A stretch of DNA of 64,000 bases. Source: Neisseria bacilliformis (GTDB taxonomy: Bacteria; Pseudomonadota; Gammaproteobacteria; Burkholderiales; Neisseriaceae). The notes under the pieces are model-generated. The model did no database searches. It worked only from the letters and a program-made list of their open reading frames with translations, and was not told the DNA's origin. Made by a program: the position numbers and the translations under genes. Shown here in pieces: positions 1-46,650 of the stretch. The stretch lies in contig NZ_CP059571.1 in the NCBI RefSeq assembly GCF_014055025.1, positions 186,001 through 250,000 on the forward strand. Reading direction: 5' to 3'. Positions within the stretch are counted from its first letter, which is position 1, and every line of letters begins with the position of its first letter.

Positions 1-1095
<1,095 letters not shown>

Positions 1096-1148
1096 GAGAA
1101 AAGGGCTTGGCACCCACACTTATCGGTAATCGGACAGAGCGTTACAAA

Positions 1149-1225
<77 letters not shown>

Positions 1226-1235
1226 GCGAACATCC

Positions 1236-1311
1236 GGGGGCATAGCTCAGTTGGTAGAGCACCTGCTTTGCAAGCAGGGGGTCATCGGTTCGATCCCGTT
1301 TGCCTCCACCA
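1236..1311 (+). tRNA. tRNA-Ala (UGC anticodon)
   Basis: A 76-base cloverleaf starting GGGGGCATAGCTC, with anticodon loop CTTTGCAA (anticodon TGC), T-loop GGTTCGATCCC and an encoded CCA end. It is separated from tRNA-Ile by only 10 bases, so both come from the rRNA precursor. Confidence 0.97.
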
Positions 1312-1672
1312 AGATTTTCAAATTAAAGCGAATTAAACAGAAAGCAAATTGTTGGAAAGTAAAACATACCGGCAATTTGCAAGAGAAACATTCTAAATAG
1401 TTTATTTTAATTTGCGAATCAAAACGCATCGATCTTTAACAAATTGGAAAGCCGAAATCAACAAACAAAGACACTGAGGTTTTATCAGAACTACCAAACA
1501 GTTCGAAATAAAGCCCAGTAATTTGGGTGATGATTGTATCGACTTAATCCCGAGACACAAAAGGCGGGATTAAGACACAACAAGCAGTAAGCTTTATCAA
1601 AGTAGAGGCCTTAAGGTGCCAAGCTAGTCAACGGCAAAGTACCGAAGTCAGAAAGGTACTTCAAATGATAGA
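1312..1672 (+). other. internal transcribed spacer tRNA-Ala to 23S, with boxA-like site
   Basis: This 361-base spacer has no gene. At about 1431-1445 the sequence GATCTTTAACAAATT resembles the boxA antitermination signal of rRNA operons. At 1667-1680 the sequence GATAGAGTCAAG is complementary to CTTGACTCTATC after the 23S gene, which would form the processing stem around 23S rRNA. Confidence 0.7.
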
Positions 1673-4557
<2,885 letters not shown>

Positions 4558-4687
4558 TCATTTGAAGGACTTTGCTTCTTTGAAGATAATGCTTGCATAG
4601 GACTTGTTCCGATATGTTCATCACAGTTGATACGCCGCAAAAGACGGATGTCTTGCTGCGGCCGGCTTTGCCGATTTGACAGTTTCA

Positions 4688-4801
4688 GTCTGGCGGCCAC
4701 AGCGGTTTGGTCCCACTCCTTCCCATCCCGAACAGGACAGTGAAACGAACCAGCGCCGATGATAGTGTGGATTCCCATGCGAAAGTAGGTCACTGCCAGA
4801 C
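4688..4801 (+). rRNA. rrf: 5S ribosomal RNA
   Basis: About 114 bases beginning GTCTGGCGGCCACAG and ending CACTGCCAGAC, with terminal pairing TCTGGC/GCCAGA and the conserved loop CCCATCCCGAACAGG. It follows 23S by about 130 bases, completing a standard 16S-Ile-Ala-23S-5S operon. Confidence 0.96.
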
Positions 4802-4810
4802 ACCTATTGC

Positions 4811-19296: not shown

Positions 19297-20979
19297 TTAG
19301 TGGTCGGAAGCCCCGGCCGCACCGATGCCGGTCATGGAGCGGACGTATTGGGCGTCGAAGCCGGCTTTGTCCTGTGCCGCCTGTTCGGATTTGTCGAGCA
19401 GCGACACGATCCACGATACGGCGAAGGCCAGCGGGATGGTGAACAGGGCGGGGTTGCCGTAGGGGAAAATGGGGCTGTCGTTGTGCAGCACGCTCACCCA
19501 CACGGTCGGGCCGAGCACGATGAGCACCAGCGCGCCAATGAGTCCGGCGAAGCCGCCGGCAACGGCGCCGCGCGTGGTCAGCCCTTTCCAGAACATGCTC
19601 AACATCAGCACGGGGAAGTTGGCAGACGCGGCAACGGCAAAGGCCAAGCCCACCATAAAAGCGACGTTTTGGTTTTCAAAGGCTACGCCGAAGATGATGG
19701 CCAGCACGCCCAAGCCCAAAGTGGCGGCGCGGGAGACGCGCATTTCTTCTTTCGGCTGCGCCCGTCCTTTGCGGATCACCGACGAATAAATGTCGTGGCT
19801 CACCGCCGATGCGCCCGACAGGGTCAGCCCGGCCACCACCGCCAAAATGGTGGCAAAGGCCACGGCGGAGATAAAGCCCAACAGCAGGTTGCCGCCGACG
19901 GCTGCCGACAGGTGAACCGCCGCCATGTTGGTGCCGCCGATCATTTCGTACACGGTTTTGCCGTCTTTGACTACGGCTTTGAAAAACTCGGGATTATTGG
20001 TCAGGAAAATAATCGCTCCAAAACCGATGATAAAGGTGAGCAGGTAGAAATAGCCGATAAAGCCGGTGGCGACGACCACCGATTTGCGCGCTTCGCGGGC
20101 GTCGGGCACGGTGAAGAAACGCATCAGGATATGCGGCAGGCCGGCGGTACCGAACATCAGCGCCAGGCCGAGCGAGAGCGCGTCCACCGGATTTTTCACC
20201 AGGCCGCCGGGCGCCAAAATCGCCTCGCCGAGCGTATGGGTATCGACGGCTTTTTGGAACATCGTTTCCATGCTGAAACCGCTGGCATACAGCACCATAA
20301 ACGACATAAACGTTGCCCCGCCCAGCAGCAAAACCGCTTTAATCATCTGCACCCAAGTGGTCGCCAGCATGCCGCCGAACAGCACGTAGGCCACCATCAG
20401 CACGCCGACGATCAGCACCGCCCAAATATAGTCCATGCCGAACAAAAGCTGGATCAGTTTGCCCGCGCCCACCACCTGCGCGATGAGATACAGCATCACC
20501 ACCAACAGCGAACCCGAAGCGGCAAACAGCCGCACCGGCGTTTGTTTCAGGCGGTAGGCCGCCACGTCGGCAAAGGTGAACTGCCCGAGGTTGCGCAGCC
20601 GCTCGGCAACGAGAAACAGCACCAGCGGCCAGCCCACCAGAAAGCCGGTGGAATAAATCAGGCCGTCGTAGCCGGAGGTGAACACCATTGCCGAGATGCC
20701 GAGAAACGACGCGGCCGACATAAAGTCGCCCGCAATCGCCAGCCCGTTCTGAAAGCCGGTGATGCCGCCGCCGGCGGTGTAGAAGTCTTTGGACGAGCGG
20801 TTTTTCTTCGCCGCCCACTTGGTAATCCACAGCGTTGCACCCACGAAAATAAAAAACATGACGACGGCTGTCCAGTTGGTCGCCTGCTTCTCCACCTCGC
20901 CGGTAAACGCATCCGCCCACAGGCAGCCTGAAAAGCCCGCCGCCCAGGCGGCAAACAAAAACTTATGTTTTCCCATCAT
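19297..20979 (-). CDS. actP: cation/acetate symporter
   Basis: A 560-residue sodium:solute symporter of the ActP type, importing acetate and short monocarboxylates. A signal-like N-terminus is followed by about 13 hydrophobic segments. The block [29 protein letters not shown] is the usual ActP signature region. It overlaps the upstream DUF485 gene by 4 bases (ATGA), the standard yjcH-actP arrangement. One isolated Kingella-type uptake sequence (AGGCAGCCTGAA, 20921-20932) lies in the signal-peptide coding part. Confidence 0.94.
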
Positions 20980-22846: not shown

Positions 22847-25129
22847 TTAACGTTTGTTGTCCAGTTCGCCGCGCAGTTTTTTGGTAACGGCCATCATCAC
22901 TTCGAGCTGTTCGAGCGTTTCTTTCCAGCCGCGGGTTTTCAGGCCGCAGTCGGGGTTGACCCACAGGCGCTCGACGGGGACGACTTCCATCGCTTTGCGC
23001 AGCAGGTGTTCCACTTCGACTTCGGCCGGCACGCGCGGGCTGTGGATGTCGTACACGCCCGGGCCGATGTCGTTGGGGTATTTGAAGTCGCCGAACGCGG
23101 TTAAGAGTTCCATGTCGGAGCGCGAAGTTTCGATGGTGATGACGTCGGCGTCCATGCTGGCGATGGCGGGCAGGATGTCGTTGAACTCGGAGTAGCACAT
23201 GTGGGTGTGGATTTGGGTGCTGTCTTCGGCGCCGGTGGAGGAGAGGCGGAAGGCTTCGCACGCCCAGGCCAGGTACTCGTCCCACTGGGCTTTTTTCAGC
23301 GGCATGGCTTCGCGGATGGCGGGCTCGTCGATCTGGATGACTTTGATGCCGGCCTTTTCCAAATCCAGCACTTCGTCGTTGAGGGCGAGGGCGATTTGTT
23401 TGGCCACGGTGCTAAGCGGCACGTCGTCGCGCACGAACGACCATTTGAACATGGTAACGGGGCCGGTGAGCATGCCTTTCATCGGGCGTTTGGTGAGGCT
23501 TTGGGCGTAGGACGACCAATACACGGTCATCGGCTCGGGGCGGGAGACGTCGCCGAAAATCACGGGCGGTTTGACGCAGCGGCTGCCGTAGCTCTGCACC
23601 CAGCCGAACTGGGTGAAGCAGTAGCCGGCCAGCTGTTCGCCGAAGTATTCGACCATGTCGTTGCGCTCGGCTTCGCCGTGGACGGGCACGTCGATTTCCA
23701 GTTTTTCCTGCACTTCGACGCAGTAGGCGATTTCTTTTTTCATCGCGGCATCGTAGTCGGCGGCGGAGAGTTCGCCTTTTTTGAAGGCGGCGCGGGCCTG
23801 GCGGATTTCGGTGGTCTGCGGGAAAGAGCCGATGGTGGTGGTGGGCAGCAGCGGCAGTTTCATCCATGCCTGTTGGGCTTGGATGCGCACGGGGAAGGGC
23901 GATTTGCGCTGGTCTTCGCCGGCTTTCAGGCTGCCTACGCGTTCCTGCACGGCGGGATTGTGGATTTTTTTGTTGGTGGCGCGGTCGGCGGCGGCGGCAT
24001 CGGAGGCGGCCAGCTCAGCTTTCACGCTGTCTTTGCCGTGTTCGAGGGCGCGTTTGACGATGCCCAGCTCGACCAGTTTCTGCGCGGCAAAGGCCATCCA
24101 GGATTTGATTTCGGCGTCGAGTTTTTCTTCAACGGCCAAGTCCTGCGGGCTGTGCAAGAGCGAGCAGCTGGGGGCGATCCACAGGTTGCTGCCGAATTTG
24201 GCGTTCAGCGGGGCGAGGGTGTCGATGACTTTGCTCAGGTTGGCGCGCCACACGTTGCGGCCGTCGATCAGGCCGACGGACAGAACGCGCTCCTGCGGCC
24301 AGCCTTCGGCAAACACGGCCAGCTGCTCGGGGGCGCGCACGCAGTCGATGTGCACGCCGTGCACGGGCAGGGATTTGAGCAGGTTCAGATGCTCGGCCAC
24401 GGTGGCGAAATAGGTGCCGATGATGATGCGCACGCCGGTGGCGGCCAGCTCTTTATAGACGTTCGGGAAGGCGTCGAGATAGGGCTGCGGGGCGTCTGCG
24501 GCCAGAATCGGCTCGTCGATCTGAATCCAGTCCGCGCCTGCGGCAGCCAGTTCGCGCAACAGTTGCGCATAGGCGGGCAAGAGTTTGGGCAGCAGGGTTT
24601 TGACGCGGCAGCCGAATTCTTCTTTTTTCTTGCCCAGCCACAGCAAAGTCAGCGGGCCGACCAGCGTGGGCTTGATGTCGCAGCCCTGCGCTTTGGCTTC
24701 TTTAATCTGCGCGATAAGGTTGGCGGCGTTGACCGAAAATTCGGTATCGGCATGCCATTCGGGCACGATGTAGTGGTAGTTGGTGTCGAACCATTTGGTC
24801 ATTTCCATGGCAAACTGGGTGGCGTTGCCGCGTGCCAGCTGGAAATATTCCGGCAGGGTGAGTTTGGATGCGTCGAAGCCGAAGCGTTTGGGAAGCGCAC
24901 CCAGGGTGCACAGGGTGTCGAGCACGTGGTCGTAGAAGGAAAAATCGCCGACGGGCACGAGGTCTGCGCCGGCGGCTTTCTGCGCCGCCCAGTTCAGACG
25001 GCGGATTTCTGCGGCGGTTTCGCGCAGCTCGGCTTCGGATTTCGCGCCTTTCCAAAAGGCTTCGACGGCAAATTTCAGCTCGCGCTTCGCGCCGATGCGC
25101 GGGTAGCCGGAGAGGTGGAATGTGGTCAT
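22847..25129 (-). CDS. metE: cobalamin-independent methionine synthase
   Basis: A 760-residue MetE that moves a methyl group from 5-methyltetrahydrofolate-triglutamate to homocysteine without B12. The N-terminal start [19 protein letters not shown] is typical, with AGGAGA 5 bases upstream of the ATG. Zinc ligands are seen in [11 protein letters not shown] (His and Cys) and [11 protein letters not shown] (Cys). The frame is open upstream through the leader, but the conserved start fixes it. A leader with an intrinsic terminator precedes the gene. One isolated Kingella-type DUS lies in the coding sequence at 23925-23936. Confidence 0.97.
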
Positions 25130-25291
25130 GGTTGTCTCCTGATTGGTTTTGAGAATGTGAAAAAACGTAATGATGCCATCTTGCCTTGTTTGGCGGCAAT
25201 AGGCAAACGAGTTATTTTGGCCTTGCGCATGAACGGATTTAATAGGCCGTCTGAAAACAGGGGAGGCACGTCTGGAACCGTGCCCGCGGGC

Positions 25292-25465
25292 AAAAAAAAC
25301 GCCCTCGGGAAGGAGGGCGCAAATACAGAGAGAATACACAAAAACAAAAGGTTTCCCGCAGCGGGAAAGACGGCTTGCACCAAGGGATTAAGGGCTTAAA
25401 AGCCTGCTGCGGGTTTTGCTGTCGGTATGGGCGCGGATTATGCACGGGAAAACGGATTTTGGCAA
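25292..25465 (-). promoter_or_regulatory. metE promoter and structured leader with intrinsic terminator
   Basis: On the minus strand, TTGCCA (25465-25460), 17 bases, CATAAT (25442-25437) make a good promoter. The leader holds CCCGCAGC (25413-25406) complementary to GCTGCGGG (25362-25355), which can instead form a local TTTCCCGC-TGC-GGGAAA hairpin. Small hairpins GGCTTTTAAGCC and CTTG-GTG-CAAG lie between. Then CGCCCTC/GAGGGCG followed by eight T forms a strong terminator (25319-25292), still about 160 bases before the metE ATG. This looks like an attenuator or riboswitch. I could not match it to a known SAM or cobalamin aptamer. Confidence 0.65.
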
Positions 25466-25809: not shown

Positions 25810-25882
25810 AGCAGGTCGGGCATTCATGCCCGACAAACACCGGCGAATTTGGAAAATGTCGGGCATAAATGCTCGACCTGCT
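25810..25882. repeat. 73-base palindromic GCAGGTCGGGCAT repeat
   Basis: AGCAGGTCGGGCATTCATG at the left and its near reverse complement at the right enclose two smaller hairpins. A homologous copy with the same inner spacer (CACC-GC-AATT-G-AAAA) occurs at 43664-43735, and a half copy at 57668-57697. Confidence 0.8.
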
Positions 25883-40710: not shown

Positions 40711-40922
40711 GTTTGTTTCTCCAAAGTGGTTGCAAAAAATAAGCATAACCGCCGTGCGGTGCGGCGGTTATTTTGCCCGATTCGCAAGGCGATTCCAACT
40801 GTTTCGGCGGCTTTGCCTCAGGGCGGGAGGCCGTTTGAAAACACGGTTTCGGCACAGGCGGGAAGCGGATTTGGTTTTTTCAGACGGCCTTTAAGCAATG
40901 TTCGGCAGGTCGTCTGAAACCT

Positions 40923-41207
40923 TTACTGCGCCTGTGCGCCGCCATCAGCAGCCTGAACTTTCAACACCGCCTGCACCACATCATCTACGGTGCGCACGTT
41001 GCGGAAGTCTTCGGCGTTGAGTTTGCGCCCCGTTTCGCGTTTGATGCGGTCAATCAAATCAATCGCGTCGATGCTGTCAATTTCCAAGTCTTCGTAAAGA
41101 TTGGTTTCGGGCTGGATACGCTCGGGCTCAATCTCAAACAAATGAACCAGCGTGTTGGCGAGCAGGGCGCGGATTTCGGCTTCGCTCAGGATTTTGTGTT
41201 CGCTCAT
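40923..41207 (-). CDS. acyl carrier protein of the aryl-polyene-type cluster (ACP 1)
   Basis: A 94-residue ACP. The phosphopantetheine serine is Ser45 in EIDSIDAIDL. Longer than housekeeping ACP, with a C-terminal Gln/Ala tail. It is the last gene of a tightly packed minus-strand operon (KS-like, acyltransferase, ACP 2, ACP 1), 9 bases after ACP 2. Two tandem ACPs are a hallmark of aryl polyene clusters. The last gene before the aspA border; a mucosa-type DUS AGGTCGTCTGAA (40907-40918) abuts the 3' end. Confidence 0.88.
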   Translation of the reverse strand: MSEHKILSEAEIRALLANTLVHLFEIEPERIQPETNLYEDLEIDSIDAIDLIDRIKRETGRKLNAEDFRNVRTVDDVVQAVLKVQAADGGAQAQ

Positions 41208-41216
41208 CGCTGCTCC

Positions 41217-41483
41217 TTATGCCTGTGCCTGACGGCTTTTGACAAATTCCGCCAGCGTTTTGACGTTGGCGAAGTTGTCGCGCAGGTTGTCTTTTTCGCC
41301 GTCAAGCTGGAAGCCGAAGGCTTTTTGCACCGCCAAACCGAGTTCCAGCGCGTCCACGGAATCCAGCCCCAAGCCGTCGTCGCCGAACAGCGCGTCTTCG
41401 CTGCCGATGTCGGCGGGGGTAATGTCTTCCAGCGCGAGGCTGTCGATGATGAGTTGTTTGATTTGGTGTTCTAAGTCGTTCAT
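41217..41483 (-). CDS. acyl carrier protein of the aryl-polyene-type cluster (ACP 2)
   Basis: An 88-residue ACP with attachment Ser42 in GLDSVDALEL. The ATG at 41483 overlaps the stop of the acyltransferase gene by 4 bases (ATGA), so it is translationally coupled. Distinct in sequence from ACP 1, suggesting that starter loading and elongation may use separate carriers. Confidence 0.9.
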   Translation of the reverse strand: MNDLEHQIKQLIIDSLALEDITPADIGSEDALFGDDGLGLDSVDALELGLAVQKAFGFQLDGEKDNLRDNFANVKTLAEFVKSRQAQA

Positions 41484-42238
41484 GTGGTTTTCCTTGTGAA
41501 ATAGTCTTGCAGGTATTCGTTGAGCCGTCTGGCGGCGATGGGTAAGGGTTTTTCGGCGAGCCAGTCTTGCGGGTTGATGTCGTCGCCGACGGTGATTTCG
41601 TAATGGATTTTGCGCGGCGGGATTTTGTACCACGGCTGCCCTTTTTTGAAGTTGGGCGGGTTCATTTTGATGACCACGGGCGTAATCACTTTGGCGCTGC
41701 GCAAGCCGATGGATACCGCGCCACGGTGCATTTTGACCTGCCCGTCCCAGCCCGTGCGCGTGCCTTCGGGGAAAATCAGCAGGCTTTGTCCGCTTTGGAA
41801 CACGGCTTCGATTTCTTCCAGCATTTCCATGCTTTCGTCGTTGGGGATATAGCCTGCGGCGCGGATTTGGCTGCTCATGCTGGGGTTGCGCACCAAGTCT
41901 TTTTTCACCAGCACGTTTGGGTCAGGCGCGTGGCTCACCAGCAGCACCACATCTAATAAAGACGGGTGATTGGCAAGAATCAACTGCCCGCCGCGCCCGA
42001 GTTTTTCTGCGCCGTGGAAGGTTACCGACAACACGCCCGACCATTGCAGATAGCCGACAAAAAACCGCCACACGCGCCCAATCATGCGGCGGGCGGCAAG
42101 CTGGCGCGGCACGTCGCCACGGGTGGATTTGAGCGTGTAGGGCAACAGGGCGATTTTGAACAGCACGCCCGCCACGCCGAACAGGATGAAGCCCAGCATG
42201 GTGGCGAAAAAACGGCGGCAGTAATCCAAACGGCTCAT
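41480..42238 (-). CDS. 1-acyl-glycerol-3-phosphate-acyltransferase-like protein (LPLAT)
   Basis: A 252-residue membrane acyltransferase. Residues 12-33 form a transmembrane helix. The catalytic HX4D is His91-Asp96 (NHPSLLD) and the phosphate-binding motif is FPEGTRTG. In aryl polyene clusters such a protein is thought to pass the polyene to a lipid anchor. It overlaps the genes on both sides by 4 bases. Confidence 0.87.
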   Translation of the reverse strand: MSRLDYCRRFFATMLGFILFGVAGVLFKIALLPYTLKSTRGDVPRQLAARRMIGRVWRFFVGYLQWSGVLSVTFHGAEKLGRGGQLILANHPSLLDVVLLVSHAPDPNVLVKKDLVRNPSMSSQIRAAGYIPNDESMEMLEEIEAVFQSGQSLLIFPEGTRTGWDGQVKMHRGAVSIGLRSAKVITPVVIKMNPPNFKKGQPWYKIPPRKIHYEITVGDDINPQDWLAEKPLPIAARRLNEYLQDYFTRKTT

Positions 42239-42975
42239 GCGCGTTTTTCCCACAGCCAGCGGCGGTTTGGATATTGCCGCGTGTGTTTCAGGCTGCCTGA
42301 AAGCAGAAAGCGTATCCAGTCCAGCGCGCCGAAGTAACTTTCAGGCTGCCTTGCGCTGTCGTCCGTTTCCAACGTCAGGCTGAAAGCGTCGCCGCGTTCG
42401 ATGACCATCGCCAGCGCGTAGGCAAACGGCGCGCGCTCGGCGGCAACGGCGTATTCAGTTTTCAACGGATCGTCCGCCACCACCAGCAACACGCGCTCGA
42501 TGCCGTCTGAAAACAGCGACACGGCTTCCGCCAAGGCCGTTTCCAAGCCGTCCGCGCCCGTTGCCAGCGCGGTATTTTCCTGCATTTCGCCGCGCTGGAT
42601 TGCCCACTGCCCCGCCAGCGCGTTGTGCACCGACAAACCGAACGAAGTGGGCGACACGGTGTGCGTTTTCAACAGCTCGGGCCACAATTCAAAGCTGCGG
42701 TTAATCTCGCCGTCGTGCGAAGCGTAAACCAAAGGGCAGCCTGAAAACCGCTCCGCCAAATCCCAAGCCGCTTCGCACACCAACCGCGCCGCCGCGCCCA
42801 AACGCCGCCGCTGCATGGCAGGCAGAAACGAGAGCGCGGGCTTGTGTTCGGGCAGGCTGTCGGCGTTCAGACGACCTTGCGCCCACTCGCGCCATTGTTC
42901 TGTGCTGGCAAGGCGGTTGGAAGCGGCGTGCCATGCGGCGATGTTGAATGAAAAAGTGCAGGCGGTGGTTGTCAT
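42235..42975 (-). CDS. ketosynthase-like (chain-length-factor-type) protein of the aryl-polyene-type cluster
   Basis: A 246-residue protein of the beta-ketoacyl-synthase-like N-terminal family (ketoacyl-synt_2 type). It keeps the thiolase-fold segments (CPLVYASHDGEINRSFEL, SPTSFGLSVHNALAGQWAI) but has no active-site Cys in a TACSSG context, so it should act as a non-catalytic partner of the real ketosynthase at 45338. First gene of the minus-strand operon, divergent from the dehydratase gene. Its coding sequence holds Kingella-type uptake sequences at 42287-42301 and 42340-42351. Confidence 0.83.
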   Translation of the reverse strand: MTTTACTFSFNIAAWHAASNRLASTEQWREWAQGRLNADSLPEHKPALSFLPAMQRRRLGAAARLVCEAAWDLAERFSGCPLVYASHDGEINRSFELWPELLKTHTVSPTSFGLSVHNALAGQWAIQRGEMQENTALATGADGLETALAEAVSLFSDGIERVLLVVADDPLKTEYAVAAERAPFAYALAMVIERGDAFSLTLETDDSARQPESYFGALDWIRFLLSGSLKHTRQYPNRRWLWEKRA

Positions 42976-43026
42976 GGTGTGGCTCTGCGGCGGGAAAAGG
43001 CGTGCATTTTAACTGAAATTAACACC

Positions 43027-43055
43027 TTATGAAACCGCGGGCGCATTGGTATAAT
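43027..43055 (+). promoter_or_regulatory. promoter for the plus-strand aryl-polyene-type operon
   Basis: Perfect -10 TATAAT (43050-43055) with TTATGA 17 bases upstream as a weak -35, 30 bases before the dehydratase ATG. The 109-base gap must also hold the divergent minus-strand promoter. Confidence 0.65.
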
Positions 43056-43084
43056 CCCATTTTTTCAAACCACATCAAGCCGCT

Positions 43085-43570
43085 ATGCACCGCCTTATCT
43101 GCCCCATTGAACATCCCGCTTTTCTGCTGCCGCACAGCGGACACATGGTTTTGATTGACCGCGTAACCGAACACCGCGCCGATTTTGTGCGCGTAGAAGC
43201 CTATGTCGGCAGCAAGCATATTCTGTTGCAAAACGGCGTATTGCCGACCACCATGGGCATGGAAATCATGGCGCAGGCAATCGGCGCGTTTGCCGGCATA
43301 CAGACCATCAGCGCAGGTGAAGAAGTGAAACTCGGCTTTTTGCTGGGCACGCGCAAACTGAATCTGTTTGCCGATGCTATCCCCGTCGGCACCACGCTTG
43401 CCGCCACCGCCCACCTATCCACCCAAGACCCCAGCGGCATGGGCGTGTTTGACTGCGAACTGCGCTGGCTCGACGCGCCCGATGGTGTGCGCGACACGCT
43501 GCCGCAAGACGGACTGCTGGCTCAGGCGGCGTTGAATGTTTATAGCCCGAAAGAAGCGCGCACGGTTTGA
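43085..43570 (+). CDS. 3-hydroxyacyl-ACP dehydratase (hotdog) of the aryl-polyene-type cluster
   Basis: A 161-residue single hotdog-fold protein like ApeP dehydratases. FLLPHSGHMVLIDRV at residues 13-27 gives the catalytic His region, and TTMGMEIMAQAIGAFAG (about 55-71) the central helix with the Glu. It would remove water after each ketoreduction to leave a trans double bond. First gene of the plus operon; a Kingella-type DUS follows it at 43580-43591. Confidence 0.87.
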   Translation: MHRLICPIEHPAFLLPHSGHMVLIDRVTEHRADFVRVEAYVGSKHILLQNGVLPTTMGMEIMAQAIGAFAGIQTISAGEEVKLGFLLGTRKLNLFADAIPVGTTLAATAHLSTQDPSGMGVFDCELRWLDAPDGVRDTLPQDGLLAQAALNVYSPKEARTV

Positions 43571-43579
43571 TTTTTCGGT

Positions 43580-43735
43580 TTCAGGCTGCCTCTTTATGGA
43601 TGTTCAGACGGCATCAGAGGCAGCCTGAAAACAGGATATTGAAACATGGATGCCGTCTGAAAAGTAGGTCGGGCATTGATGCCCGACAAGCACCCGCAAA
43701 TTGAAAAAACGTCGGGCTTGAATGCCCGACCTACT
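43580..43735. repeat. mixed-dialect DUS block and 72-base palindromic repeat
   Basis: Kingella-type AGGCAGCCTGAA at 43580-43591 (reverse) and 43618-43629, meningococcal-type ATGCCGTCTGAA at 43602-43613 (reverse) and 43650-43661, then the GTAGGTCGGGCAT palindrome at 43664-43735, homologous to 25810-25882. All sit just before the DUF4145 gene. Confidence 0.85.
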
Positions 43736-43753
43736 GTAATTAGGAATAATTAG

Positions 43754-44509
43754 ATGAAAAAAGAATGGTTTGAGCGAGAGTTAAAAACACAGATTCAAAA
43801 TCCTATTAAAGTTCATTGTAAACAGTGCAATAGGAAAACTTTGCATACCATACACGCAAGCTACGAGGAAGATTATCATCAGATAGATACACCATTCTTT
43901 TCATTTGATGGACACACTAACTATCAAATTATCCAATGTAATGGCTGTGAATTTATTAGTTTTAGAGAAGAATCTTGGAATAGTGAAGATTATGAGCATT
44001 ACACAGAAGAAGATGGTTCTACAAATGTGCGATGTAGCGTAACGGAGAAATTTTTTCCTAACTATATTAGCGGTAGCCGTTTTCAAGATGGCGAGTTGTT
44101 CCATTTACCAGATACGTGCCGACATCTTTATCTTGAAATAGAATCTGCCCTTGCTAATCAACATGTATTATTAGTTGCTATTGGGTTAAGAGCTTTAATG
44201 GAGGCTATCTGCGAATATGAACAGCAATGCGGAAATATAATTTTTGGGAAAAGAGATCATTTATTTCAAAAAATTGGGAAAATACTTGAACAAGGACTGC
44301 TACCGAAAGGGTCAAAAGATATTCTTCATAGTATAAAAGACATGGGAAACAGTTCTGCTCATGAAGCTAAGAGACAAAATATTGAACACTTAAAATTGGC
44401 TTTTGGTGTCTTAGAGTCTCTGCTACGAACACTATATATTCATACAAAGCAATTTAATGAAATTAAGCAAGATTCCGATGATGCTAAGCAAGGTAAACAC
44501 AAAAGGTAA
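43754..44509 (+). CDS. DUF4145 protein with zinc ribbon and HEPN-like region
   Basis: 251 residues, much more AT-rich than its neighbours. The N-terminal zinc ribbon is Cys22-Cys25 and Cys62-Cys65. The C-terminal helical half carries IKDMGNSSAHEAKRQNIEHL, the GN..AH motif of DUF4145, and an R-x4-H pattern as in HEPN ribonucleases. DUF4145 proteins are often near restriction or defence genes; no such partner is seen here. It splits the dehydratase and ketoreductase genes of the pigment operon and is flanked by repeats, so it is probably an inserted gene. A 13-base repeat ATTAAGCAAGATT occurs in its 3' end and again at 44558. Confidence 0.75.
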   Translation: MKKEWFERELKTQIQNPIKVHCKQCNRKTLHTIHASYEEDYHQIDTPFFSFDGHTNYQIIQCNGCEFISFREESWNSEDYEHYTEEDGSTNVRCSVTEKFFPNYISGSRFQDGELFHLPDTCRHLYLEIESALANQHVLLVAIGLRALMEAICEYEQQCGNIIFGKRDHLFQKIGKILEQGLLPKGSKDILHSIKDMGNSSAHEAKRQNIEHLKLAFGVLESLLRTLYIHTKQFNEIKQDSDDAKQGKHKR

Positions 44510-44609
44510 TGTCGTCATTTAAAAAGATATTTTATTGATAAGCAAGATTTGCAACCCATTAAGCAAGATTTCAGGCAGCCTGAAACCCCAAAAAACCACA
44601 GGAACCCCC

Positions 44610-45338
44610 ATGAACAAAACCATCCTAATCACAGGCTCAAACCGAGGCATCGGCAAAGCCGTCGCGCTTGCCCTTGCCGCCGACGGCTACGACATCGCCG
44701 TGCACTGTCGCAGCCGCCGCGACGAAGCCGAAGCGGTTGCCGCGCAAATCCGTGCGCTGAGCAGGCAGGCGCGGGTGTTACAGTTTGACGTGTCCGACCG
44801 CGCCGCCTGCCGCGACATATTAACCGCCGATGTGGAAGCAAACGGCGCGTATTACGGCGTGGTGTTAAACGCAGGTTTGACGCGCGATGCCGCTTTTCCC
44901 GCGTTTTCAGACGACGATTGGGACAGCGTGTTGCGCACCAATCTCGACGGTTTTTACAACGTGCTGCACCCCGTTATCATGCCGATGATACGCCGCCGCC
45001 AAGACGGGCGGATTGTGTGCATGGCTTCGGTGTCGGGCATCACGGGCAACCGCGGGCAGGTGAATTACAGCGCGTCCAAAGCGGGTATCATCGGTGCGGC
45101 AAAGGCGTTGGCGGTGGAATTGGCAAAGCGCAAAATCACGGTGAACTGCGTTGCCCCCGGCTTGATTGACACGGAAATCGTCGATGAAAACGTGCCTGTG
45201 GACGAGATTTTGAAAGCCGTGCCCGCCGCGCGCATGGGCACACCCGAAGAAGTCGCCCACGCGGTGCGTTTTCTGATGGACGAAAAAGCGGCGTATATCA
45301 CGCGCCAAGTGATTGCGGTGAACGGGGGATTGTGTTAA
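44610..45338 (+). CDS. 3-oxoacyl-ACP reductase (SDR, FabG-like) of the aryl-polyene-type cluster
   Basis: A 242-residue short-chain dehydrogenase. The cofactor loop is TGSNRGIGKA (residues 9-18). The catalytic triad is Ser138, Tyr151 and Lys155 (YSASK). It would reduce the keto group in each elongation cycle. The ATG at 44610 follows AGGAACCCCC; a Kingella-type DUS lies 26 bases upstream (44573-44584). Its stop overlaps the start of the ketosynthase gene by one base (TAATG). Confidence 0.92.
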   Translation: MNKTILITGSNRGIGKAVALALAADGYDIAVHCRSRRDEAEAVAAQIRALSRQARVLQFDVSDRAACRDILTADVEANGAYYGVVLNAGLTRDAAFPAFSDDDWDSVLRTNLDGFYNVLHPVIMPMIRRRQDGRIVCMASVSGITGNRGQVNYSASKAGIIGAAKALAVELAKRKITVNCVAPGLIDTEIVDENVPVDEILKAVPAARMGTPEEVAHAVRFLMDEKAAYITRQVIAVNGGLC

Positions 45339-46573
45339 TGGAAACCAAGCGCGTTGTGATTACCGGCATCGGCGGCATTACCGCGTTCGGGCGCGACTGG
45401 CAGAGTATTCAGGCTGCCTTTCGCGCCGAAAAAAACGCCGTGCGGTATATGGACTGGCGCGAGCGTTTCCCCGAATTGGAAGCGCAGCTCGGCGCACCGC
45501 TGCCCGACTACACCCCGCCCGCGCATTGGACGCGCAAGCAGCTTCGCAGCATGGGGCGCGTATCGCAGCTTTGTGTGGACGCGGCGGAACAAGCCCTGCA
45601 AAACGCGGGTTTACTCGGCGACGAAACGATTAAAAACGGCAAAATGGGCGTGGCGTGCGGCTCGTCAACGGGCAGCACCAAAGACATCGGCGACTTGGGC
45701 GAACTGCTGCTCACCGGCACGTCGCGCAATTTCAACGCCAACACCTATGTGCGCATGATGCCGCACACCACCGCCGCCAATGTCGGCATCTTTTTCGGGC
45801 TGACGGGGCGGATTATCCCTACGTCCAGCGCGTGTTCATCGGGCAGCCAAGCCATCGGCTACGCCTACGAAGCCATCAAATACGGGCTGATTGACACCAT
45901 GCTCGCGGGCGGCGGCGAAGAGTTCTGCCCCTCGGAAGTGTATGTGTTTGACTCGCTCTACGCCGCCAGCCGCCGCAACGGCGAACCCGAGCGCACCCCG
46001 CGCCCCTATGACGCAGGGCGCGACGGCTTAGTGATTGGCGAAGGCGCAGGCATGATGGTATTGGAATCACTGGAACACGCGAGGGCGCGCAGTGCCAAAA
46101 TCTACGCCGAAATCATCGGCTACGGCGCAAACAGCGACGGCAGCCACGTTACCCAGCCGCAAAAAGACACCATGCAAAAATGCATGGAACTCGCCCTCAA
46201 AGACGCAGGCATCCGCGCCGAACAGGTCGGCTATGTGAGCGGGCACGGCACGGCCACCGAAAAAGGCGACATCGCCGAAACGCTTGCCACCGAAGCCGTG
46301 TTCGGCTTTGTGCCCATGAGTTCGCAAAAAAGCTATTTGGGACACACGCTGGGCGCGTGCGGCGCGCTGGAAGCCTGGTTCGCCGTTGAAATGATGAATG
46401 GCGGCTGGTTCGCGCCAACCGTGAATCTGGACAACATCGACCCGCGCTGCGGCAGGGTGGACTACATCAAAAGCGGCGGGCGCGAGATTGAAACGAATTA
46501 TGTGGTCAGCAATAATTTCGCGTTTGGCGGGGTGAATACTTCGCTGGTGTTGAAAAGATGGCGGGGGGCGTAG
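45338..46573 (+). CDS. beta-ketoacyl-ACP synthase (KAS II type) of the aryl-polyene-type cluster
   Basis: A 411-residue elongating ketosynthase. The nucleophile is Cys166 (TSSACSSGSQ), with histidines in SGHGTATEKGD and SYLGHTLGACG, so the Cys-His-His triad is complete. It should pair with the Cys-less KS-like protein at 42235. A Kingella-type DUS is in its coding sequence (45408-45419). It ends the plus operon; host-type DUS resume 20 bases after its stop. Confidence 0.93.
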   Translation: METKRVVITGIGGITAFGRDWQSIQAAFRAEKNAVRYMDWRERFPELEAQLGAPLPDYTPPAHWTRKQLRSMGRVSQLCVDAAEQALQNAGLLGDETIKNGKMGVACGSSTGSTKDIGDLGELLLTGTSRNFNANTYVRMMPHTTAANVGIFFGLTGRIIPTSSACSSGSQAIGYAYEAIKYGLIDTMLAGGGEEFCPSEVYVFDSLYAASRRNGEPERTPRPYDAGRDGLVIGEGAGMMVLESLEHARARSAKIYAEIIGYGANSDGSHVTQPQKDTMQKCMELALKDAGIRAEQVGYVSGHGTATEKGDIAETLATEAVFGFVPMSSQKSYLGHTLGACGALEAWFAVEMMNGGWFAPTVNLDNIDPRCGRVDYIKSGGREIETNYVVSNNFAFGGVNTSLVLKRWRGA

Positions 46574-46589
46574 TTTGGCAGACAAAGGT

Positions 46590-46650
46590 CTCAGGCCGTC
46601 TGAAAACCGTTTTTGGCTGCGCCGAAGCCGCGCTTTCAGACGGCCTCGAT
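46590..46650. terminator. inverted host-type DUS pair between convergent genes
   Basis: AGGCCGTCTGAAAACCG faces an extended DUS (GGCTGCGCCGAAGCCGCGC then TTTCAGACGGCCT). It ends the ketosynthase gene and supplies the stop of the minus-strand phosphopantetheinyl transferase gene. Confidence 0.8.

Follow-up and report, generated by a model that had tools for sequence, protein, structure and literature searches.

The DNA uptake sequences (DUS) of the Neisseriaceae occur in dialects that are held to isolate groups of the family genetically, and the route by which a dialect changes is the question addressed here. Minority ('peregrine') dialects within a host have been described for mucDUS (Frye et al. 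2013, PMC3630211), and islands of AG-kingDUS/AG-simDUS dyads, including integrative and conjugative elements, have been described in pathogenic Neisseria, where they reach up to 36 kb, carry conjugative elements and possibly derive from Kingella (Hughes-Games et al. 2020, PMC7371117). The stretch analysed here, referred to as the window, comprises 64 kb of Neisseria bacilliformis (bases 186001-250000 of a genome assembled as a single contig of 2,492,712 bases) and contains, at window positions 42287-45419, a block of king-type DUS within a predicted pigment cluster. N. bacilliformis and Kingella potus are placed near each other in PMC10715097. As in the dialects of Frye et al., exact 12-mers, overlapping sim/king dyads and inverted pairs were found; unlike the minority dialect described there, that of the window is of the distant king type and clustered, occupies sites at which relatives also have DUS, and is found together with canonical DUS in tight hybrid pairs. 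The block resembles the islands of Hughes-Games et al. in being depleted of host DUS and enriched in king and sim DUS on a Neisseria chromosome, but it spans 3.1 kb and holds pigment genes that appear to be of Neisseria type. We consider it an even call that king tags were put at old DUS sites of Neisseria-type pigment genes and that the tracts bearing them were recombined in from an unsampled king-dialect relative.

Both strands of the window were scanned for the exact AG-kingDUS, AGGCAGCCTGAA (hereafter kingDUS), and eight copies were found (20921+, 23925-, 42287-, 42340-, 43580-, 43618+, 44573+ and 45408-), compared with none in 100 shuffled controls, so that the dialect is over-represented. 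Six of the eight lie within 42287-45419, at the positions given in an earlier note on this DNA, which had also correctly placed the two isolated copies that complete the window total, one inside the open reading frame (ORF) 19297-20979 (20921..20932, +) and one inside ORF 22847-25339 (23925..23936, -). The simDUS (AGGCTGCCTGAA) that it had reported at 42290 was found again, on the + strand, together with a second, overlooked copy at 44570-; two of the block's king sites each overlap one of these, forming the king/sim dyads 42287/42290 and 44570/44573. Its meningococcal-type DUS proved to be three AT-DUS (42500+, 43603- and 43650+) out of six in the window. The host AG-DUS occurs 103 times in the window and not once between 40879 and 46593, leaving an AG-DUS-free stretch that is bounded by two AG-DUS (40879..46604) and holds the block; enrichment of king and sim DUS and depletion of host DUS are thus seen together, as in king/simDUS islands. 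Host DUS do occur in the ligase-to-LolA half of the cluster, as the same note had said.

The dialect found at the king sites was compared with that at the same sites in relatives, with counts given as loci and some genomes represented twice. Each of the block's three king sites in coding sequence coincides with own-dialect DUS of some Neisseria relatives. At the site in the beta-ketoacyl-acyl carrier protein synthase gene KS2 (45408..45419, -; codons IQAAF), 17 of 101 non-king loci carry an AG-DUS and one an AT-DUS on exactly the same bases (IQTAF), with none in the other 83; of six king-dialect loci, one carries king (K-) and one sim (S-). In the synthase-like gene KSn, the C-terminal part contains a dyad (42287..42301; codons SGSLK), which corresponds to AG-DUS in 5, muc in 5 and wad in 7 of 45 non-king loci (none in 28), and no DUS was seen there in the three king loci aligned. 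At the second KSn site (42340..42351, -; codons RQPES), AG-DUS was found in 2 of 41 loci, one of which is genome G029 (RPSEN), and a further AG-DUS was off by a base. Many Neisseria relatives carry an own-dialect DUS in the gap between the dehydratase (DH) and ketoreductase (KR) genes, and others none. At a site in mfd, a gene of another king island, 32 non-king loci were compared, of which 21 had AG-DUS and 4 muc; among 9 king loci, 3 had sim or king there. Across the four king-bearing genes for which relatives were compared (KSn, KS2, an exporter-like gene and mfd), all nine king sites lay within 3 bases of a relative's DUS, compared with 27 of 1195 control positions, and canonical Neisseria DUS were present at five of nine versus 14 of 1195. 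As king sites fall at the DUS positions of relatives above the control rate, it was concluded that the dialect was changed in place.

The same coincidence, together with gene bodies that look like those of Neisseria and AG-DUS left near king sites, would also be expected if rewriting had occurred within the host lineage itself, which would accept, or have accepted, DUS of the king type by way of a bilingual ComP, with the tags spreading by drive. This is the main rival explanation, although we regard it as unlikely on grounds given below. A further alternative is that a native gene received very short pieces of a king-dialect genome that comprised little beyond the DUS. The KS2 site, which is king or sim in two king-dialect loci, is consistent with this, but none of the three aligned king-set loci has a DUS at either KSn site, and the flanks, at about 70% identity, would be poor substrates for recombination, as is generally the case at that level. 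Nor was any local rise in identity to king loci seen around king sites in forty-codon windows. The best non-king locus exceeded the best king locus in all seven such windows that contained a king site and both kinds of relative, in a comparison whose larger non-king set favours the non-king side, in which locus L261 of the king-rich genome G001 was wrongly placed in the non-king set (ranking top in Mfd 81-120, which holds no king site) and G002, whose king sites number 46, was assigned to the king side. Two of the king-site windows fall in a poorly conserved Mfd linker, and an eighth was without a king locus. Three other windows (two of Mfd, one of KR) favoured the king side by 0.01. Very short imports are therefore rated as highly improbable.

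The block is part of a predicted aryl polyene (APE)-type cluster, a placement that rests on family searches. The genes of the cluster comprise two acyl carrier proteins (ACPs), an acyltransferase, the KS-like KSn, an ApeP-like dehydratase, KR and KS2, followed by a phosphopantetheinyl transferase, a ligase with an ApeI-like end and a methyltransferase of the FlxJ family (NCBIfam); Pfam matches to ApeP-like, ApeI-like, PP-binding, Ketoacyl-synt_2 and KR supply the APE gene set. Further members we take to be a glycosyltransferase, an acyltransferase, a thioesterase-like and a LolA-like protein. The cluster shares with known APE clusters its ACPs, its KS and KR, its acyltransferase and its two kinds of dehydratase (ApeP-like and ApeI-like), but the pathway genes of this genome are found at two loci, at 41-54 kb of the window and at 69-89 kb of the genome, each lying partly within a king island. 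Within the block, KSn (42235..42975, -; Pfam Ketoacyl-synt_2), which is nearest to G029 and contains an AT-DUS (42500..42511, +), is followed by DH (43085..43570, +), nearest to a Neisseria metagenome-assembled genome (73%), and, 3' of the DH stop, by an inverted kingDUS pair with 15-nt arms (43580- and 43618+; 43580..43629). A dyad (sim-/king+; 44570..44584) stands upstream of KR (44610..45338, +; 91% to N. viridiae and N. sicca), and KS2 (45332..46573, +; PRK09116 in NCBIfam) is 87% identical to its nearest Neisseria counterpart.

It had been proposed in the earlier note that this half of the cluster came from a Kingella/Simonsiella/Alysiella-like donor. Exact kingDUS and dyads arranged as in king-dialect loci agree with such a donor. 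When best matches for both cluster halves were compared across loci recruited by a KS search, however, those of the block side were to N. sicca, N. viridiae and their kin (KR 91%, KS 87%, ACP1 91%, acyltransferase 87%), and the other half matched the same kinds of Neisseria (ligase 70%, methyltransferase 81%, glycosyltransferase 78%). KSn and DH were more divergent, with best values of 61% and 72% among the KS-search loci, and 70% for KSn in G029, which showed the same pattern in both halves. KS identity to same-genus genomes ranged from 87% down to 63%; among the 12 king-rich genomes (at least 200 king sites each), seven held an APE-type KS at 67-74%, and the other five distant paralogues at 34-38%. 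The value of 87% to Neisseria versus at most 74% to king-rich genomes weighs against the proposed donor, as do king sites located at relatives' AG sites.

Trees were built for KR+KS2, KSn, DH, the ligase and the glycosyltransferase, with the ACP, methyltransferase and LolA proteins compared by best matches alone. In the KR+KS2 tree (34 rows), the window protein fell into a nine-row Neisseria clade (support 95/91) with N. sicca, N. polysaccharea and G029 as neighbours, apart from Alysiella and Conchiformibius. It fell into an eight-row Neisseria set in the DH tree (SH-aLRT 95), with G029, G039 and G015 in the KSn tree (94), and with N. sicca and its kin in the ligase tree (95), which has 13 long-branched rows of which one is king-dialect; the glycosyltransferase tree, also of 13 rows, lacked king-dialect rows and had no small set that was starred. 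Forcing the window protein to group with three king-dialect rows cost 165 log units (KR+KS; approximately unbiased (AU) test, p-AU 7.9e-5). An affinity of the block's genes with Neisseria is well supported by the similarities and the free trees, and import of the pigment genes from king-dialect genera is disfavoured by the trees for KR, KS2, KSn and DH. The grouping of both halves with Neisseria, named in the earlier note as what would count against its donor, holds in the best trees and in the similarities, although it is not proven, as two constrained groupings that include king-dialect rows were not rejected (p 0.14 and 0.134). The proposed donor is not borne out and appears quite improbable, those two results being in its favour.

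The DUF4145 gene between DH and KR (43754..44509, +; 34% GC) is of odd composition, which also would suit a Kingella-like source, but it was unmatched in the 82 other family genomes (E 1e-5), and a comparison with plasmids returned 21 distant records, every one below 60% identity. It is flanked by king, AT and sim DUS and by a 25-nt inverted repeat. No integrase or conjugation gene was present among the block genes (KSn, DH, DUF4145, KR and KS2).

In the whole genome, 272 king sites were counted, with none for a reversed-pattern control, beside 3951 AG-DUS; the pattern AGGCMGYCTGAA matched 4279 times, leaving 56 one-step king/AG intermediates. The contrast between 272 king sites and 56 single-step intermediates argues against drift, and, with no king site in the shuffled controls, chance or drift as their origin was ruled out. 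The other 45 same-genus genomes carry between 2 and 54 king sites each, and the highest count among 83 family genomes is 3449. Clustering was analysed on both strands up to position 1,700,337 (193 king sites, or 148 after merging within 200 bp). The variance/mean ratio in 20-kb bins was 3.04, compared with 0.96 at random, and was not reached in any of 2000 simulations; 82 of the 148 merged sites sit in 11 islands totalling 110 kb, as defined after the positions were known, and the pigment block ranks among the smaller ones. In the first 134 kb of the forward strand, two islands chosen after the fact held 13 king sites with 2 outside, as opposed to 2 AG-DUS inside and 98 outside (Fisher 2e-13), and a runs test independent of islands likewise found king and AG sites to avoid each other (0 of 5000 shuffles as extreme). 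Overlapping sim/king dyads numbered 15 (S-K+ 11, K-S+ 4) among 128 king sites in 255 kb examined. A foreign dialect concentrated in tracts of a mosaic genome, as the earlier note had supposed, is supported by the clustering of 3.04 versus 0.96, and over the part covered the sites are not evenly spread; its further description of the block as a foreign-dialect fingerprint was right in that the king sites are genuine, but the block is not unique, given the 272 sites and the other islands. Rewriting within the host lineage predicts neither islands nor the depletion of AG-DUS inside some of them, and just 56 intermediates were found.

Another explanation for islands is that they are ancestral relics, the remainder of a formerly king-dialect lineage that has been overwritten by AG-DUS DNA. 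King or sim is present at some of the same sites in king-dialect loci too (two of six at KS2, and at mfd), and the branching order published in PMC3630211 places king and king3 groups before canonical Neisseria. However, the placement of KR+KS2 (95/91) and KSn (94) inside Neisseria implies that AG is the older dialect there, with an AU test (p 0.14) that leaves some room, and relics are accordingly considered improbable.

Exchange of king-bearing DNA between species was seen at an efflux stretch in another island (L150 3397-7143, genome 72397-76143), which covers the end of an OEP gene, an MFS gene and an EmrA-like gene. Three other Neisseria species match 2.9-3.75 kb of this stretch at 98.6-99.1% identity, G026 over the entire length and G014 and G032 over 2.9 kb, and an identical king/AT hybrid 27-mer is part of the match. 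Identity drops to 92% within a halogenase-like gene, and mfd of G014 and G026 is 76-85% identical in comparison; no match to the stretch was found among plasmids. Judged by its sequence, the stretch is a recent interspecies exchange, in which king-bearing tracts pass between Neisseria species. In the explanation preferred here, the dialect of the block would have been exchanged in place within an unsampled lineage with Neisseria-type genes and a king-dialect ComP: transformation in that lineage would favour king tags at every existing DUS site, each change from AG to king amounting to two base changes, and tracts of its DNA would then have reached the host through transformation, followed by homologous recombination. 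The host ComP may have been able to take up these tracts by way of AT-, AG- or muc-DUS on them, and the DUF4145 gene may have arrived with such a tract.

Recombination from an unsampled king-dialect relative best explains the clustering together with the gene bodies, but several observations weigh against it. No genome was found that combines Neisseria-type genes with the king dialect, the 45 other same-genus genomes having no more than 54 king sites. Among the loci compared, none is nearly identical to the block (the highest identity is 74% for both KSn and DH and 82% for KR-KS), and its import is therefore inferred by analogy. In mfd, an AG-DUS persists 116 bp from a king dyad, some islands have a near-normal AG density (25 AG and 18 king at 1362-1382 kb), and for four of the nine king sites the coinciding DUS of relatives are exclusively of the eik, king, sim or king3 dialects. 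The low p-AU of 7.9e-5 mainly rejects the clade of three king-dialect rows, which is not a clade in the free tree; placing KR+KS with the existing group of Eikenella, Alysiella, Conchiformibius and N. elongata cost 17 and was not rejected (p-AU 0.14), and neither was DH with Alysiella, Conchiformibius and N. elongata (cost 14, p-AU 0.134).

King sites were also found in hybrid pairs, in which a kingDUS and an AG-, AT- or muc-DUS point apart with 3 bases between them (15 bp start-to-start), as in the block at 43603..43629 (AT-DUS -, kingDUS +), whose AT-DUS has an inverted partner at 43650..43661 (+). Spacing was measured for outward pairs within 60 bp in 255 kb, made up of the window and 13 stretches chosen for their king sites. 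Sim/king dyads were excluded, as were two canonical pairs of mixed dialect, neither of which was at 15 bp. Exactly 15 bp was seen in 14 of 19 king plus AG/AT/muc pairs, compared with 1 of 23 same-dialect pairs. The genome has 17 tight hybrid pairs, as opposed to five in total across four of the 82 other genomes, three of the five being the mobile king/AT 27-mer of the efflux stretch. Predicted folding was weak for hybrid pairs (-2.6 and -3.3 kcal/mol) and strong for made-up homotypic pairs (-13.7 and -13.8 kcal/mol). It is conceivable, though doubtful, that hybrid pairs are bilingual uptake tags for the ComP of two dialect groups, letting DNA cross the dialect barrier, and that only the hybrid form is tolerated, since a homotypic pair would form a perfect 12-bp hairpin. 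Neither in-place dialect change nor hybrid pairs were mentioned in the literature titles and abstract openings searched, and either may have been described before.

The excess of hybrid pairs, 17 here against five in 82 other genomes, would suit rewriting by a bilingual ComP in the host lineage, as would the length of the host ComP-like protein (164 amino acids as read by script), which lies in the range of the king-dialect ComPs (150-169) and above that of the other Neisseria ComPs compared (127-145). In the ComP tree, however, the host protein groups on the Neisseria side, and four king-dialect ComPs make up a separate clade (95/92); the fork between the two sides is weak (87/72), and the long row of G081 (289 king sites) also falls on the Neisseria side. 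PF16732 had three matches in the genome, and among the matches listed are two adjacent genes, one ComP-like and one a paralogue with an NSTTW motif common to most relatives compared. A second ComP of king type was looked for, and none was seen among these two listed matches.

The island that holds the efflux stretch (L150, genome 69001-89000) contains further pigment-pathway genes, namely an FAD-dependent halogenase-like gene, another KS, a small membrane protein and an exporter-like protein, which has no Pfam match, has relatives in 53 of 80 pigment loci and is presumably MMPL-exporter-like. It also holds a low-GC TOTE-type conflict pair (PADLOC PDC-M16) and the efflux-type operon (OEP, MFS and HlyD/EmrA-like). 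L156 1624-6184 (genome 1157624-1162184) holds a type III restriction-modification pair that bears several king DUS. Its Res has matches in eight of 83 genomes and is nearest to king-rich G082 (62%, the next being 57% in the same genus), a point in favour of a Kingella-like donor. L160 and L161 (genome 1678001-1712000) contain genes of a Mu-like prophage (Mu portal, Mu F, baseplate J and minor tail), and king/sim DUS lie within coding sequence there; the stretch L161:1300-16645 had no match among phage records by megablast. An apparent nuo operon, named from reading the sequences, carries king DUS in L154 (genome 624001-637000), and its G026 counterpart (L276) likewise carries several. Within the window, an inverted repeat of a small palindromic element lies at 43663..43735, with more copies near 25812 and 57670. 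Positions 1-4807, which lack a complete ORF of at least 250 amino acids and match at 91.7% a G029 stretch beside its DH-KR-KS genes, are presumably a ribosomal RNA operon.

As the same DUS sites occur in several dialects across species, dialect change can be traced site by site. A foreign dialect alone does not identify the source of the surrounding genes, and foreign tags in what appear to be Neisseria-type genes offer a way to study how mating-like barriers change in this family.

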